Assembly: GCF_023074835.1 (NCBI RefSeq)
Contig: NZ_JALLGW010000001.1
Span: 2,542,001-2,606,000 of the forward strand
Direction: 5' to 3'
Length of the DNA: 64,000 nt
Origin: Halomarina salina
GTDB taxonomy: Archaea > Halobacteriota > Halobacteria > Halobacteriales > Haloarculaceae
Shown here piece by piece: positions 5,150-56,667 of the stretch. The stretch's first letter is position 1; each line of letters begins with the position of its first letter. The translations under genes and the position numbers were made by a program. The notes under the pieces are model-generated. The model searched no databases, was not told where the DNA came from, and saw nothing but the letters and a program-made list of their open reading frames with translations.

Positions 5150-6603
5150 ACGCCGACCAGCGGCAGGCGGTGCTGGACAACGCGCGGTACCTCCGGCAGG
5201 TTCGCCCCATCGACCCCGAGGAGATACACGAGTACGTCGAGGGAACGCCCCACCCGGCGGTCGTCCGACAGACGCTCCGGGAGGCGGCGTTCGACCTCGG
5301 CCTGCGCGAACGCGACGACGGGACGTTCGTCCCGGCCAGCGACGACCCGGTGGACGTGCGCCTCGACCGCGTCGAGGCGTTCCCCGAGGAGTACGCGGCG
5401 CGACTGGAGGACGTACTGGTCGAGCGCTACGGCCTCGACTGGGCCGAGGGCGACTCCGGCGACCGGCTGCGAGCCACCATCCGGCGCGTCAAGGAGGAGT
5501 ACTACCGTCAGCACCCCGTCGAGTACGACGCCGAGACGGCGCTGGCGTACGCGCTCTACCACCTGCCCGACTACTACGCCGTCGCACAGTACGCGTTCGG
5601 TGCTCTCGCCGACGACGGACTGGTGCCGAACACGCTCCGGGTGCTGGACGTCGGCGCGGGCGTCGGCGGTCCCGCCCTGGGACTGCTCGACCTGCTACCC
5701 GAGGACGCACTGGTCGACTACCACGCCGTCGAACCGAGTGCCGCCGCGGACGTGTTCGAGGACCTGGTCGAAGACGACCGGAATCGACGCGTTGCCCTCC
5801 ACCGGGAGACGGCCGAGGCGTTCGACCCGAGTGCCGCGGTCGGTACCGACGACGCGGACGACGGCGGTCCGTTCGACCTCGTCGTGTTCTCGAACGTGCT
5901 GTCGGAACTCGACGACCCGACCGCGGTCGCCCGGCGGTACGCCGACGCGGTGGCCGACGACGGGACGCTCGTCTGCCTCGCGCCGGCCGACCGGAACACC
6001 GCCATCGGGCTCCGCGAGGTGGAACGCGACCTCGAACGCGAGGGAAGCGCGTCGGGAGCGACCCTCACCGTCTACGCGCCCGAGGTGCGCCTCTGGTCGT
6101 GGCGCACGCCGGAGGACGAGGGCTGGTCGTTCGACGTGCGCCCGGACCTCGCCGTCCCCGACGTCCAGCGCCGCCTCGACGAGGCGACGCCGGAACACGA
6201 CGAGGCGCACGCCCCCGGCGAGTTCGTCAACGTCGACGTGCAGTTCGCGTACTCACTGCTCCGTCGGGACGGCAGCGAGCGCGTCGACTTCTCGCCCGAC
6301 CCGGACCGGTACGCGCCGCTGGCGGCCAGCGAGAGCCACGTCACCGACCGCATCGACTGCGTGGCGTTCAAACTCTCGGCGAACCTCTCCGAGGGCAACC
6401 CGCTGTACCGCGTCGGCGACGGGAGTCAGGCGGTCGACCACTACGCCGTCAGTACGCGCGAGTCGGCGCTGAACCGCGACCTCCGGGAGGCACCGTACGG
6501 CGGACTACTGGCGTTCGAGAACGTCCTCCTCCTCTGGAACGACGACGAGGACGCCTACAACCTCGTCGTGGACGCCGAGACGGTCGTCGACCGCCTCGGC
6601 TGA
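5146..6603 (+). CDS. Rsm22-like class I SAM-dependent methyltransferase
   Basis: A 485-residue protein. An N-terminal helical domain (residues 1-150) leads to a class I methyltransferase core with the SAM-binding loop VLDVGAGVGG at about 166-175, an acidic strand-2 end (AVEPS) and FDLVVFSNVLSEL. The C-terminal third has the LVCLAPADR and R.D.V.FKLS segments typical of Rsm22-related proteins of the small (mito)ribosome. The Cys cluster seen in mitochondrial Rsm22 is not obvious here. A role in ribosome assembly or rRNA methylation is inferred from the family. Translationally coupled to tyrA by ATGA. Confidence 0.75.
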   Translation: MNADQRQAVLDNARYLRQVRPIDPEEIHEYVEGTPHPAVVRQTLREAAFDLGLRERDDGTFVPASDDPVDVRLDRVEAFPEEYAARLEDVLVERYGLDWAEGDSGDRLRATIRRVKEEYYRQHPVEYDAETALAYALYHLPDYYAVAQYAFGALADDGLVPNTLRVLDVGAGVGGPALGLLDLLPEDALVDYHAVEPSAAADVFEDLVEDDRNRRVALHRETAEAFDPSAAVGTDDADDGGPFDLVVFSNVLSELDDPTAVARRYADAVADDGTLVCLAPADRNTAIGLREVERDLEREGSASGATLTVYAPEVRLWSWRTPEDEGWSFDVRPDLAVPDVQRRLDEATPEHDEAHAPGEFVNVDVQFAYSLLRRDGSERVDFSPDPDRYAPLAASESHVTDRIDCVAFKLSANLSEGNPLYRVGDGSQAVDHYAVSTRESALNRDLREAPYGGLLAFENVLLLWNDDEDAYNLVVDAETVVDRLG

Positions 6604-44810: not shown

Positions 44811-44831
44811 TGATCTGAATTACTGAAGAAG

Positions 44832-44916
44832 TGCAGGGAGCAGGATTTGAACCTGCGGACCCCTGAAGGACGGCGCCCTGAACGCCGCGCCGTTGGCCAG
44901 ACTTGGCTATCCCTGC
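44832..44916 (-). tRNA. tRNA-Leu (anticodon CAG)
   Basis: 85 nt. Acceptor arms GCAGGGA and UCCCUGC pair fully; the anticodon stem CGGCG/CGCCG encloses loop UUCAGGG, so the anticodon is CAG. A long variable arm (GUCCUUCAGGGGUCC region) and T-loop GGUUCAAAUCC mark a class II tRNA-Leu. It sits between rpoD and L18e, the conserved archaeal place. Confidence 0.95.
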
Positions 44917-50918: not shown

Positions 50919-53900
50919 TCACTGTCCTCCCTCCGACTCACGAACACGTTCCTTGATGTCCGCCCTGCTGAGAAGCCCACGACTGGAGAAGTGCGTGCTG
51001 AAGTCGTCGATCACTCTGGCGGTGCCAGGCCCAGACCCACCAGTACGATAGCGGATGATCGTCCCACTCACAGTCGCGCGAGTTCCCACGACACGATCTT
51101 CCTCGGTGTACGCTGGACGGATGACCTCCTCTGTGTTCGTGCGACTCATCATCCATCGGCGTTCGGTCAGCGTATCGCCGATTCGGTAGTCTGTCTGGCC
51201 GGACACCTGTCGCCAGGCGGCTCGCTCGTTCTCAACGGTGTCCACCTGCTGCCACTCGTACTTCGCAGGTTGGACAATCGTGGTGTGGGACGCGACGTAC
51301 TCGCGTTCCGTTTTAGTTCTCCAAGTGCTGTACCGGTGCTCGTACTCCGTCGCGTATTCGGCTGCATCGACGAGCGTGCGTCGAACGTCTCCAGTAGCCG
51401 AATGATACGATAGATGCTTCGAACGGGCCCAGTACGTATGGGTGACGTCGACGTACACCGTCCGTTCGTAGGTCACCTCGTAGCATCTCCCGTACAATGG
51501 ACATTGACGGCTCGTAATCTCACGCGTTCGCGGTTCGACCGTCGAGTACTCGTACTCGCGTTCGGTGGAGTATTCGGCAGGGTCGGTGCGAACTCTACGT
51601 GTCTCGCCGGTGAATCCGTTTCCTTTGGTACGTCTCCACTCCGTATGCGTTTCTCTGACCCGCTCGCGATGCGTCTGAACGCCGTCGGCGGTCCACTGCG
51701 AATGGGTCTTGAGGAACAGTCGACGGCTGTACGTCGAACTGAACTCACGAGAGTCTGTATCGACGATTTCCTCCTGGGTTCGGACGTGTTCCTCGATGCG
51801 GTAGCCGACAGTAGTCGACTCGGAGTTCTTGACCTCGTAGCCAGCATCGACTAGCTGCTGCATCTCGCTACGTGCATTTGCGACAGTCGTCTCCTCGGTC
51901 TGCTTGCGGATTACGTACCGGAGGTTGGTTACATCGAGGGTGCCCCGGCCTGTTCGCTGGGACCCGGTGAGTGCCACTGTCGGTAGCGTCGTCGTCTTCC
52001 GTGCGTAGTCCGGGCGTTTCTCGTTGTATAGGACGAGTCGCGCATCCGGCCCGTTCTTCGCCAGCGCACTCGCGGGCAGTTCGATCGTCCCCTCGAATGC
52101 GAAGTCGTTCTCCCCCCCGACTGCATCGGTGTACAGTTCGTCCCATTCCACGACTTCACCAGGCACACCTCTGAGTTCCGCTCCGATGTCGAGATTTGCT
52201 GTGTTGCGTCGAAGCTGTACGAGAGCCGTTCTAACTTCAACCCGAACCGGTTCGTCTGGTGAGAACGGACCTTCTCCGACAACTTCTGTTGATTCTATAT
52301 TGGGGACTAGTGTCTTTTGAGCACTCCAATTCTGGTAGACTCTCGCCCCGGAGTCATCCTCGATAATAATTTTTCCATCCTCCCAACCAGACAATCGACC
52401 GATGGAGTCGTCTCGCTCCGTCGCCTCTGCCCCATTTTTCCAGATATAGGTCAAGGTCGTTCCATCAGGGTCGAACGAATCGCTCGCATCGATAATGATG
52501 TCCTCTCTCGTATCTATCGGAGCACGCGTCGAACCCCCCGACCCTCCAACAGGCCTCGTACCATCATTTAGCATCTCGATACGCATCACCGACTTGCTAG
52601 GAGTGACAATGAACCCTGAACTCCCGTCGCTAATCATCTTACTCGGTTGATGGGATTTCATCTCCAGAACGAACTTCACACCATACGGCGATCCTGAGCT
52701 AGGGGATTCACCAGCCCAATAGGTGTGGACAGTGGCGATTCCATCTTCTGTCGCTACCTTTCGACCGGCTATTCGACGCACATCAGTTGGCTTCTCTGCG
52801 CTGACATCGATTCCTAAATCCGCTACCGAATGCCCGTTCAAATCGATTTTCAGGACATGGTGCGCCGTGTATCGTTCTGCATCGATTCGCGGGTGATACG
52901 AGTCGACGGGTCCGTTTACGAACTCCGCCGAGACCACTTCGGGAGGTGCGAGTACTGTGACGGTGCGATTCAGCGTCGTCTGCTGTCCCCGTTCATCGAC
53001 TGCTGTGACGACGATATCGTAGTCACGCCCCGGCTTGGCGTCCGCCCAGTCGAAGTCCACTGTCGACCGAGAACCATCGTTCACCTCTCTGCCTCGTGTA
53101 CCGAGTCCGTCAACACTCACGTCGACAGACTTCAGGTTCCCGTAGCCGTCAGTTGCGCTCGCCGTTCCGGACAGCCCGTCCTGAGAGACGAGGTCGGAGA
53201 GCGACAGGTCGGGACGAGGATCCGCGACGATACGATTCGTACCGTCTGCAAAGTCTGCCTTCTCCGTCGTACCATCTGCGAAGGAGACTGTGGCCGTGAG
53301 CCTATGATCGCCAGGAGACCAGCTCCTAACCAGTGACTGACCAGTCGCCTCGACGTCGCCGTCGACAGTCCATTCGACCTGGTCGACGGTACCACTCGTC
53401 GCTATAGAGTACTCCCCTCCGAGTGGCCGGTCACCCGTGACGAGTTGCGGACCGCGAATCGTCGGTGAACGGTCGACCGGGGTTGGCGTATCAGGAGGCC
53501 CCGCGGGTGGTGGCGTAGTCGAGACTGGCGTGCTGGGGGTCGAGGTGGGTGCTGTGGTCGTCGTGGTGGGTGTCGTCGCTGCCTCGCCGACGTCGACGTA
53601 GAGCGAATCGGACGCAGTGTCGCCGCTATCATCTGTTACGGTGAGGGTGACGACGTACCGCCCGACTGTCTCCGCGACGAACGTCGTTCGAGGCTCTGTC
53701 GGTTCGCGGGGACTGACAGCAGTCCCCGTCGGTGTCTCGATACGCCACTCGTACTCGGCGATACGTCCATCGGGAGCACGTGACCCCGACCCGTCCAGGA
53801 GGACAGTCGTTCCCCGTTCGACGGACTGATCGAGGCCTGCATCCGCGAGTGGTTCGGAAATCCGGTCGACTCCTCCGACAGCAGCGACGGGTCCGACCGT

Positions 53901-53945
53901 CGCTACGACGACGAACGCAGCGAGGGCCAACGGTTTCGTTCGCAT
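50919..53945 (-). CDS. Large exported PKD-domain protein with repetitive Tyr/Trp/Thr C-terminus
   Basis: 1008 residues. Signal peptide 1-23. A PKD domain (about 35-118: ADAGLDQSVERGTTVLLDGSGS, VTLTVTDDSGDTASD), then a Thr/Pro linker (120-160), further Ig/PKD-like beta domains (165-600, including IIIDASDSFDPDGTTLTYIW near 475-500), then a C-terminal region with a degenerate 69-residue repeat: THTEW at 766 and THTYW at 835, each followed by DPAEYST or DAAEYAT and R/T-rich strands; CPLYGRC may be a disulfide loop. No anchor; its gene overlaps the anchored partner. Codons and GC look foreign. Function unknown; surface adhesin or assembly are guesses. Confidence 0.75.
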   Translation of the reverse strand: MRTKPLALAAFVVVATVGPVAAVGGVDRISEPLADAGLDQSVERGTTVLLDGSGSRAPDGRIAEYEWRIETPTGTAVSPREPTEPRTTFVAETVGRYVVTLTVTDDSGDTASDSLYVDVGEAATTPTTTTTAPTSTPSTPVSTTPPPAGPPDTPTPVDRSPTIRGPQLVTGDRPLGGEYSIATSGTVDQVEWTVDGDVEATGQSLVRSWSPGDHRLTATVSFADGTTEKADFADGTNRIVADPRPDLSLSDLVSQDGLSGTASATDGYGNLKSVDVSVDGLGTRGREVNDGSRSTVDFDWADAKPGRDYDIVVTAVDERGQQTTLNRTVTVLAPPEVVSAEFVNGPVDSYHPRIDAERYTAHHVLKIDLNGHSVADLGIDVSAEKPTDVRRIAGRKVATEDGIATVHTYWAGESPSSGSPYGVKFVLEMKSHQPSKMISDGSSGFIVTPSKSVMRIEMLNDGTRPVGGSGGSTRAPIDTREDIIIDASDSFDPDGTTLTYIWKNGAEATERDDSIGRLSGWEDGKIIIEDDSGARVYQNWSAQKTLVPNIESTEVVGEGPFSPDEPVRVEVRTALVQLRRNTANLDIGAELRGVPGEVVEWDELYTDAVGGENDFAFEGTIELPASALAKNGPDARLVLYNEKRPDYARKTTTLPTVALTGSQRTGRGTLDVTNLRYVIRKQTEETTVANARSEMQQLVDAGYEVKNSESTTVGYRIEEHVRTQEEIVDTDSREFSSTYSRRLFLKTHSQWTADGVQTHRERVRETHTEWRRTKGNGFTGETRRVRTDPAEYSTEREYEYSTVEPRTREITSRQCPLYGRCYEVTYERTVYVDVTHTYWARSKHLSYHSATGDVRRTLVDAAEYATEYEHRYSTWRTKTEREYVASHTTIVQPAKYEWQQVDTVENERAAWRQVSGQTDYRIGDTLTERRWMMSRTNTEEVIRPAYTEEDRVVGTRATVSGTIIRYRTGGSGPGTARVIDDFSTHFSSRGLLSRADIKERVRESEGGQ

Positions 53946-53972
53946 CTATCAGGACGTAATCTGGTTACTGAT

Positions 53973-53980
53973 TAAAAAAG
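53973..53980 (-). promoter_or_regulatory. TATA element of the exported PKD gene
   Basis: The minus strand reads CTTTTTTAAT, 26-35 bases before the ATG at 53945, an unusually good TATA box in this genome. Confidence 0.55.
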
Positions 53981-54102
53981 TTAGCAATCGGAGAAAGTAA
54001 TAATTGTGTATGGGTATGGGACAAGTAGACCGAGAGTCGGAGTAATTCGGGTCTGCTCGGAGGAGGGGAGAAGCCACGCCCTTTTTACCAGAGTAGCCTG
54101 TA

Positions 54103-54206
54103 GGCCCCAGTAACCGAGTAGACGGTCGCTCACGGGTTGCGAGCGAGCGACCGGCGGGGTCCAGCGTGGGACCGCCGATCGACGGCGTTCACGCGCACTA
54201 GGGGCC
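54103..54206 (+). ncRNA. Candidate structured leader RNA upstream of RNase J
   Basis: Outer stem: GGCCCC-AGT (54103-54111) pairs ACT and GGGGCC (54197-54206, one bulged A). Inside: CGGTCGCTC (54123-54131) pairs perfectly with GAGCGACCG (54145-54153); next GCGGGGTCC (54154-54162) with GGACCGC (54169-54175); then a small GCG-TTCA-CGC hairpin near 54186-54195. A last hairpin, GACTC-CTCG-GAGTC (54270-54283), ends seven bases before the ATG. Whether it is transcribed as a leader is uncertain: the TATA-like site may place the start inside the outer stem. Confidence 0.45.
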
Positions 54207-54289
54207 GCGCAGGATGCAGTCTCCAGCGGTCCGTTCCCGCCGGTCGGTCGCGTCGTCGCGCCGTCGGGCGACTCCTCGGAGTCAACACT

Positions 54290-55642
54290 ATGGAAGTCGA
54301 AATCGCAACGATTGGCGGATACGAAGAGGTCGGCCGACAGATGACGGCCGTTCGTGCCGGGGACGACGTGGTCGTCTTCGACATGGGGCTCAACCTCTCG
54401 CAGGTACTGATTCACGACAACGTCGAGACCGAGCGGATGCACTCGCTCGACCTCATCGACATGGGCGCGATTCCGGACGACCGCGTCATGTCCGACCTCG
54501 AGGGCGACGTGAAGGCCATCGTGCCCACGCACGGTCACCTCGACCACATCGGGGCCATCTCGAAACTGGCGCACCGCTACGACGCCCCCGTCGTCGCGAC
54601 GCCGTTCACCATCGAACTGGTCAAGCAGCAGATCAACTCGGAGGAGAAGTTCGGCGTCGAGAACGACCTCGTGAAGATGAGCGCGGGCGAGACGATGTCC
54701 ATCGGCGACTCGGGCAACGTCGAACTGGAGTTCGTCCACGTCACTCACTCCATCATCGACGCGATCAACCCGGTCCTGCACACGCCCGAGGGCGCGGTCG
54801 TCTACGGCCTCGACAAGCGCATGGACCACTCGCCGGTCATCGAGGACCCCATCGACATGAAGCGGTTCCGCGAGATCGGCCGCGAGGGCAACGGCGTCCT
54901 CGCGTACATCGAGGACTGTACGAACGCGGGTCGGAAGGGCCGCACGCCATCCGAGAGCGTCGCCCGACGCCACCTCGAGGACGTGATGACCTCCGTCGAG
55001 GACTGGGACGGCGGCATCGTCGCCACGACGTTCAGTTCCCACATCTCGCGGGTCACGTCGCTCGTCGAGTTCGCGAAGGACATCGGTCGTCAGCCAGTGT
55101 TGCTGGGCCGGTCGATGGAGAAGTACTCGGGGACCGCCGAGCGCCTCGGCTTCGTGGACTTCCCGGACGACGTCGGGATGTACGGTCACCGCAAGAGCGT
55201 CGACCGGACGTTCAAGCGCATCATGAACGAGGGCAAGGAGAACTTCCTGCCCATCGTGACCGGCCACCAGGGCGAGCCACGGGCGATGCTCACCCGGATG
55301 GGCCGCGGCGAGACGCCGTACCAGCTCGAAGACGGTGACAAGGTCATCTTCTCGGCGCGGGTCATCCCGGAGCCGACGAACGAGGGCCAGCGCTACCAGT
55401 CCGAGAAGCTCCTGAAGATGCAGGGCGCTCGCATCTACGACGACATCCACGTCTCCGGCCACCTCCGCGAGGAGGGCCACTACACGATGCTGCAGGCACT
55501 CCAGCCACAGCACGTCATCCCGGCCCACCAGGACATGAAAGGGTTCGCGCCGTACACGAAGCTCGCGTCCTCGCAGGGTTACACCCTCGGACGTGACCTG
55601 CACGTGACGCGCAACGGGAACATGATCCAGCTGACGGAATGA
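54290..55642 (+). CDS. rnj: Ribonuclease J, metallo-beta-lactamase/beta-CASP family
   Basis: A 450-residue RNase J. The metal motif [10 protein letters not shown] is at about 80-89; [10 protein letters not shown] precedes it; beta-CASP motifs ([32 protein letters not shown] near 382) follow, and [11 protein letters not shown] closes the active site. It acts as 5'-3' exonuclease on RNA, the archaeal RNA-decay enzyme. ATG at 54290 precedes [16 protein letters not shown]. Coupled by ATGA to the prenyl synthase gene. A structured leader may regulate it. Confidence 0.93.
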
Positions 55643-56667
55643 GCAACGACGCCGACCGGGTCGAACAGGCCGTCCAGGAACGCCGCGACCTGGTGAACGA
55701 CGCCATCGCGGACATGCTGCCCATCCAGCGGCCAGAACGGCTGTACGAGGCGTCCCGGTACCTGCTGGACGCGGGCGGCAAGCGACTACGCCCGGCGGTG
55801 TTGCTACTGGCAGCGGAGGCCATCGAGGGCGTCGAGCCGTTCGCCGAGGACTATCGGTCGTTCGGCGACGAGGATATCGACGTGATGGCCGCGGCGGTCA
55901 GCATCGAGACCATCCAGTCGTTCACGCTCATCCACGACGACATCATGGACGACGACGACGTCCGTCGGGGCGTCCCCGCCGTCCACCGCGAGTACGACCT
56001 CGAGACCGCTATCCTGGCCGGTGACACGCTGTACTCGAAGGCGTTCGAGTGCATGCTCGACACCGGCGCGCCTGCCGACCGAACGGTCCGTGCACTCGAC
56101 GAACTGGCGACGACCTGCACCCGCATCTGTGAGGGGCAGGCGCTCGACGTGGAGTTCGAGGGTCGCGAGTCGGTGGCACCGGACGAGTACATCGAGATGG
56201 TCGAGTACAAGACCGCCGTGCTGTACGCGGCGGCCGCGTCCATCCCGGCCATCGTCCTCGGTGCCGACGACGAGGTGGTGGAGGCGCTCTGTGGCTACGG
56301 ACTCGACGTGGGTCGCGGGTTCCAGATTCAGGACGACCTGCTCGACCTGACGACGCCCAGCGACACCCTCGGGAAGCAGCGTGGCTCGGACCTCATCGAG
56401 GGCAAGCGGACCATCATCTCGCTGCACGCCCGTGAACACGGCGTCAACGTCGACACGCTAGTCCCGCACGAACGGGACGCGGTCACCGAGGACGATATCG
56501 ACGCGGCACTCGACGAACTCGACGCGGCCGGGAGCATCGAGTACGCCCGCGAGATGGCACAGGAGTACGTCGACCGCGGGAAGAACCGTCTCGAGATTCT
56601 CCCCGACGGGGAGGCTCGCCGGACGCTCGAAGCCATCGCCGACTACCTGGTCGAGCGCGAGTACTGA
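55639..56667 (+). CDS. idsA: Geranylgeranyl-type polyprenyl diphosphate synthase
   Basis: A 342-residue trans-prenyl synthase. [12 protein letters not shown] starts at Asp100; SARM DDLLD lies near 233; Gly-Lys-Arg (GGKRLRP, 47-53) binds diphosphate. Phe95, five residues before the FARM, is the archaeal GGPP-length determinant. It makes C20 diphosphate for archaeal lipids and carotenoids. Start overlaps the RNase J stop; the RNase J-idsA pairing is seen in haloarchaea. Confidence 0.93.

Follow-up and report, generated by a model that had tools for sequence, protein, structure and literature searches.

A conserved leader with competing folds upstream of the haloarchaeal RNase J gene and its possible role in autoregulation

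Haloarchaeal mRNAs are mostly leaderless. For Haloferax volcanii, a dRNA-seq study describes translational control by structured leaders as not typical in this organism (PMC4983044). Against this background, the DNA upstream of the RNase J gene (rnj) in a 64,000-nt stretch from the genus Halomarina (the window, to which all coordinates refer) raises the question of whether rnj mRNA carries a structured leader and what such a leader might do. Another study reports that rnj is essential in H. volcanii, that its product is an endonuclease, and that this species is without an exosome (PMC10470531). A preliminary description of the window had proposed a multi-hairpin RNA in front of rnj that could be an autoregulation site, a riboswitch-like leader or a separate small RNA. 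The structured rnj leader was borne out by a TATA-like hexamer at a fixed distance, by covariation, and by the location at rnj of the strong matches that were checked in other genomes. A literature search on RNase J, haloarchaeal riboswitches and structured RNAs, which took in few subscription papers and no supplements, found no recognisable archaeal rnj leader.

The rnj locus and its predicted promoter

In an RNase J tree the window pairs with Halomarina oriensis, the two proteins being 97% identical. The rnj product matched TIGR00649 of NCBIfam with 423.8 bits (cut-off 400) and the Pfam family RNase_J_b_CASP. The start of the downstream gene for a polyprenyl diphosphate synthase overlaps the rnj stop, and both genes are probably expressed as one transcript (Table 1). 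The gene 5′ of rnj (50919–53945) is located on the minus strand and is divergent from rnj, which therefore requires its own promoter. This neighbor encodes 1008 amino acids with PKD domains and a long C-terminal half rich in Thr, Glu and Arg, and H. oriensis has a similar PKD-type gene at the matching position. Elsewhere in the window, ARAGORN predicted a tRNA-Gly (6004–6083) and a tRNA-Leu (44831–44916), both on the minus strand; the Rfam tRNA model stayed below its gathering score at both.

A TTTTTA box lies 28 nt 5′ of the motif GTAACCGAG. In the leaders of the window's type (type 1, see below), this putative promoter box keeps a fixed distance from a conserved predicted transcript start: 84 of 85 have a hexamer with A or T at 5 or all 6 positions, beginning 27–30 nt 5′ of this element. 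A transcript start 3′ of 54206 would have counted against the preliminary description; the start predicted from the sequence lies near 54110.

The fold energy of the region initially described (54103–54283) was unusual (z = −3.56, a value that none of 200 shuffles reached; z = −3.07 with a second shuffle set), as was that of the predicted transcript from 54110 to 54289 (z = −3.90). Since four of 356 window tiles of the same length were at least as unusual as the transcript, single-sequence fold energy was rejected as proof of structure, and we relied on comparison instead.

Table 1 Features of the rnj locus in the window. MFE, minimum free energy fold.
Feature	Position	Strand	Basis or remark
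TATA-like box TTTTTA, rnj promoter	54082–54087	+	Sequence; position of A/T hexamer in relatives
rnj 5′ leader (~180 nt; predicted transcript start about 54110)	54110–54289	+	Covariance model R1; relatives
P1, 5′ strand, CCGAG	54114–54118	+	Identical in 84/84 segmented leaders
Segment a, CGGUCGCUC	54123–54131	+	5′ strand of H1; 54124–54131 is the 5′ strand of P2
Segment b, GAGCGACCG, 3′ strand of H1	54145–54153	+	Alignment, covariation
P3, 5′ strand, CGACCGGCG, overlaps b	54148–54156	+	Genus consensus fold; b:c permutation (z = −5.0)
Peripheral hairpin, sequence and length vary between species	54164–54194	+	MFE folds
Second peripheral hairpin, GGGCCGC:GCGGUCC	54202–54232	+	MFE; partly in genus consensus
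Segment c, CGCCGGUCG, 3′ strand of P3	54238–54246	+	Genus consensus fold; b:c permutation
Segment d, GGGCGACU, 3′ strand of P2	54266–54273	+	Genus consensus fold; a:d permutation (z = −4.7)
Alternative 3′ hairpin GACUC-CUCG-GAGUC, genus level only	54270–54283	+	Overlaps d and the 3′ strand of P1
P1, 3′ strand, CUCGG, 15 nt 5′ of the ATG	54275–54279	+	84/84 leaders
rnj, RNase J, ATG at 54290	54290–55642	+	TIGR00649; Pfam RNase_J_b_CASP
Polyprenyl (geranylfarnesyl) diphosphate synthase gene	55639–56667	+	NF040789, 597 bits

Distribution of the type 1 leader

The rnj loci were drawn from 59 related genomes and 80 named genome records. After removal of 16 duplicates from 140 loci, 124 loci that were distinct in their last 200 nt remained, and 60 of these were assigned to type 1, counting one (L029) that was re-classed by hand. 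Ten of the 124 were left unclassed by the search pattern; among them, L049, L053, L055 and L062 belong to type 3 on inspection, and L054 loosely fits the type 2 pattern but also reads as type 3. One leader (L186) is present but was left out of the segment tests because the pattern had caught the wrong place, and 83 of 85 leaders were used for the energy folds, one of the others lacking a usable segment b.

The 5′ element of type 1 is nearly invariant (GTAACCGAGnnnACGGYCGYC-loop-GRCGRCCGGC). A covariance model of this element, R1, matched the window at 54110–54157 with 58.5 bits (E = 3e-12) and was searched against 293 haloarchaeal genomes, 62 of which contained one strong match each (E of 2.7e-5 or better). 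All 55 of these 62 matches that were inspected lie directly upstream of rnj. Seven weaker matches were also fetched: three (L179, L182 and L183) are located at rnj, and the other four (L175–L178), with E between 3.6e-4 and 6.4e-4, lack an rnj gene and were taken as chance. In 196 genomes of the phylum only three R1 matches were obtained at E 1e-4, all of them within the window's own family.

Both R1 and the corresponding type 2 model R2 produced one strong match per genome, and thus there is no second look-alike locus at that sensitivity; mimicry of another cellular RNA, such as an rRNA or tRNA, was rejected for this reason. No credible Rfam match to the leader was found in the whole window at gathering score or in the stretch 53900–54400 at E values up to 10. 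A search of 16 related loci at E values up to 1 gave chance-level matches only. Three further rnj loci (L037, L048 and L174) have short leaders of about 105–112 nt with a CCGAG-like start, mostly a CUCGG-like end, and a different interior, and it is possible that they represent a minimal form.

Mutually exclusive pairings within the leader

The fold given in the preliminary description was only partly right, and helices P1, P2 and P3 were absent from it. Its outer helix (54103–54111 with 54197–54206) can be read in the letters as 9 bp with one bulge (duplex −16.6 kcal/mol), but among eight leaders of the same genus it occurs as described in the window only, the region in the others reaching −5.6 to −14.8 kcal/mol with different partners. 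As it is unconserved and begins 7 nt 5′ of the predicted transcript start, we rejected it as a leader element. The GC hairpin at about 54164–54194 is likewise present in letters but variable among species, and a further hairpin at about 54202–54232, also present in letters, recurs in part in the genus consensus fold. The tetraloop-like hairpin directly before the ATG is kept in all eight same-genus leaders (ACTCC..GGAGT) but not outside the genus, and it shares positions with P1 and P2, whose conservation reaches further. The perfect 9-bp hairpin at 54123–54131 and 54145–54153, here called H1, is supported by comparison, with CG/UA exchanges between species.

In all 84 segmented leaders, P1 is the pairing CCGAG:CUCGG, which joins the predicted mRNA 5′ end to a site 13–16 nt before the ATG. 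It is part of the MFE in 80 of 83 leaders and cannot be subjected to a covariation test because it never varies. The consensus fold of the eight same-genus sequences contains P1 together with P2 (a:d) and P3 (b:c).

Covariation across species, which had been set beforehand as a test, was found for H1. All 48 aligned leaders keep H1, two cells excepted. Over the 47 distinct rows, 99.5% of the H1 cells were paired; one pair was CG in 23 and UA in 23 rows, another CG in 41 and UA in 6, and 32 cells had changed on both sides, whereas 500 shuffles averaged 7.7. Segments a and b are strongly conserved in sequence among type 1 leaders. The H1 loop varies in length, loop lengths of 1 (3 of 84 leaders) being artefacts of the duplex routine, and so does the distance from a to the 3′ strand of P1 (114–252 nt); this variable spacing fits an RNA and does not fit a DNA operator.

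Because H1 on the one hand and P2 and P3 on the other are built from the same segments, they are mutually exclusive: by sequence comparison, segment a has the choice between the local pairing a:b and a long-range pairing, P2, which is accompanied by P3. The species specificity of each pairing was assessed by a permutation test, in which the partner from the same species was compared with partners dealt from other species (46 cluster representatives, 2000 permutations). All three pairings were more favorable within species (z = −7.9 for a:b, −4.7 for a:d, and −5.0 for b:c; 0 of 2000 permutations each), and the result was similar in another run with 48 and with 46 representatives; L058 and L179 were left out of the run reported here. 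Controls remained flat, with z = −0.8, 0.0, −1.0 and +1.1 for reversed windows, +1.0 for the a versus c window, and −1.2 for b versus d. No species-specific signal was detected for c:d in this test (z = +1.0), which led us to reject c:d as a companion of H1; the alternative state would therefore consist of H1 alone. In the alignment columns, a4:b4 was Watson-Crick in 58 of 60 leaders, whereas a4:d4 was compatible in 52 and incompatible in 8 of the 60, a weaker result than that of the duplex test. A tree-based test for independent pairs, which was without power here, supported one pair only.

When only the first 60 nt were folded, 71 of 83 leaders formed H1, but at full length just two of the 83 had it in the MFE. 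The energy needed to force H1 ranged from 0 to 25.1 kcal/mol, with a median of 9.7. In these models, the energies are as expected if a hairpin forms early and is later displaced by a closed form. Nearest-neighbor energies refer to 1 M NaCl and not to molar KCl. As the MFE strongly favors the closed form, a natural switch would need a helper or kinetics.

These energies bear on a reading that we consider rather unlikely, namely that the leader is passive, its closed 5′ end blocking 5′-to-3′ decay and keeping translation constantly low with no signal involved, so that H1 would be a mere folding intermediate. A closed form that is the MFE nearly everywhere, with P1 closing the extreme 5′ end, is what such a leader would show, and the sequence-unrelated leader classes at rnj (see below) would suit a need for structure and not for one ligand. 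However, H1 has the strongest covariation of all helices, beyond the needs of a mere intermediate, and the conservation of a and b also argues against a passive role.

Three further readings seem very improbable to us: a small RNA gene of its own, an operator in the DNA, and an RNase J that is extended at its N terminus and starts from a TTG at 54137. A small RNA, the option raised in the preliminary description, would account for the own promoter and the defined structure, but the 3′ half of the conserved structure reaches to within 13–16 nt of the ATG in all 84 leaders, which disfavors it. Among 85 leaders the longest T run is 4, and 83 of them do not exceed 3, so that a small RNA would lack a U-tract terminator at this place; an intrinsic terminator or attenuator was rejected as well. 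The operator is opposed by the varying spacing between the repeats. As for the extension, the rnj frame is open from 54137 and 36 of 85 leaders lack a stop, but stops in the rnj frame of the other 49 led to its rejection.

Other leader classes at rnj and a model of regulation

Most other haloarchaeal families, e.g. Haloferax, Halobaculum, Natrialbaceae, Halorussus and Halobacterium, have a different leader at the same gene (type 2), which is unrelated to type 1 in sequence. It consists of ACCCGCGGGYAAGUG..., then CCGACGnGCUGYAAGACGCCGG..., and often GGCUUUCAAUGCUCGG before the ATG. The type 2 loci (L064–L078, L098–L140 and others) have a very conserved hairpin loop, GCUGYAAGACGCC, and gave no Rfam match in the loci scanned. 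In the central hairpin, 93.2% of cells were paired and both-side changes occurred at four of eight pairs. R2 matched once each in 66 of 146 genomes, none of them in the window's family, and all 30 of the 66 loci that were inspected are upstream of rnj. With a sequence-unrelated leader at rnj in most families, the classes have no conserved binding motif in common, which counts against the switch proposed below.

A third leader class precedes rnj paralogues, where CCGA:UCGG closes the leader before the ATG in the MFE of all six that were folded. These second copies (L042, L049, L053, L054, L055 and L062) encode proteins 81–83% identical to the RNase J of the window in the four compared. Relatives with a more diverged RNase J (L059–L061) have, as judged by eye, none of the three leader classes. 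In the RNase J tree, genome G115 with a type 1 leader (L173) is sister to Halovivax asiaticus with a degenerate type 2 leader (L100; support 100/99), and thus the leader class can change without a change of the protein.

The paralogues also bear on the quite unlikely explanation that the leader is a metabolite or ion riboswitch controlling an rnj-prenyl synthase operon. A long conserved leader with alternative folds would be in keeping with this, and mutually exclusive folds, as known from riboswitches, do exist here (a:b versus a:d and b:c, with a:d being weaker by alignment column). Of 120 judgeable loci, 117 have the synthase gene behind rnj in the same orientation. The three exceptions, however, are paralogues with third-class leaders, all three with enough sequence to tell lacking the synthase; as their leader is nevertheless closed by P1, the target shared by all is rnj. 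Moreover, the strong matches checked are at rnj only and not at other isoprenoid or metabolic genes, and the Rfam searches, even at E values up to 10 for the window stretch, assigned the leader to no described riboswitch family.

We give a probability of roughly 0.55 to the reading of the feature as a structured 5′ untranslated region of haloarchaeal rnj mRNA, acting in cis as a switch with repression by the closed form and feedback by RNase J. The leader structure is established by comparison, and we infer its regulation by RNase J. Judged from these comparisons, the leader probably controls translation or stability of rnj mRNA in an autoregulatory manner. H1 would form first during transcription and the RNA would then refold into the closed P1-P2-P3 form, which may conceal the beginning of the mRNA as well as the stretch ahead of the start codon and thereby lower translation, attack on the 5′ end, or both. 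H1 would mark the open state, and a factor that attaches to the leader or cleaves it (most probably RNase J) could shift the balance, with the outcome that RNase J limits its own synthesis in a feedback on an essential nuclease. We more tentatively entertain, at somewhat less than even odds, that three or more classes of leader, of which two have no sequence relationship, have been swapped between close relatives, and that the H1 and closed states are read by RNase J, which would thus sense its own level.

Compared with translational riboswitches and other bistable leaders, the rnj leader is alike in that exclusive helices share segments and one of them closes the region before the start codon. 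It differs by its strong matches at a single gene where checked, by having neither a ligand nor an Rfam match, and by a Shine-Dalgarno-like GGAG that is not conserved outside the genus, as judged by eye.

Archaeal precedents for cis-acting structured 5′ leaders of genes for RNA-binding proteins exist for L7Ae, S15, eL15 and L4. L7Ae is reported to act on its own mRNA via a k-turn in the 5′ leader (PMC5539422, PMC6298567), and ribosomal-protein leaders, including a halobacterial S15 leader, have been described (PMC7247131). They would lend some support to another RNA-binding regulator, e.g. an L7Ae-like or ribosomal protein, binding the rnj leader in place of RNase J. We consider this unlikely, because the regulators in these precedents act on their own genes and visual inspection of the type 1 consensus revealed no k-turn. 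The rnj leader also differs from these leaders, which target ribosomal or k-turn proteins, by its gene and by having no Rfam match.

The closest likeness of the leader, read as a cis-acting switch under RNase J, is with bacterial rne (RNase E), rnc (RNase III) and pnp (PNPase), where a structured 5′ leader also precedes the gene of a major ribonuclease; here, TIGR00649 and Pfam identify the gene as that of a ribonuclease, and the RNA structure of its leader is conserved. These nucleases of Escherichia coli feed back on their own mRNAs through decay of these mRNAs (PMC3997798). This analogy, together with an rnj that is essential in H. volcanii and whose product cuts RNA internally, makes autoregulation by RNase J plausible. 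The rnj leader is distinct in being archaeal, in belonging to a beta-CASP RNase J whose binding to or cleavage of the leader is our proposal, and in folding in two competing ways, the mRNA 5′ end being paired near the start codon. A leader that is retained at a single gene in much of the order, and whose alternative helices covary, is clearly exceptional among haloarchaea. It looks like a means of setting the cellular amount of RNase J, and it opens the control of the main archaeal mRNA nuclease to direct tests. If the proposal is true, an archaeal nuclease would gauge its own level via the leader of its mRNA.
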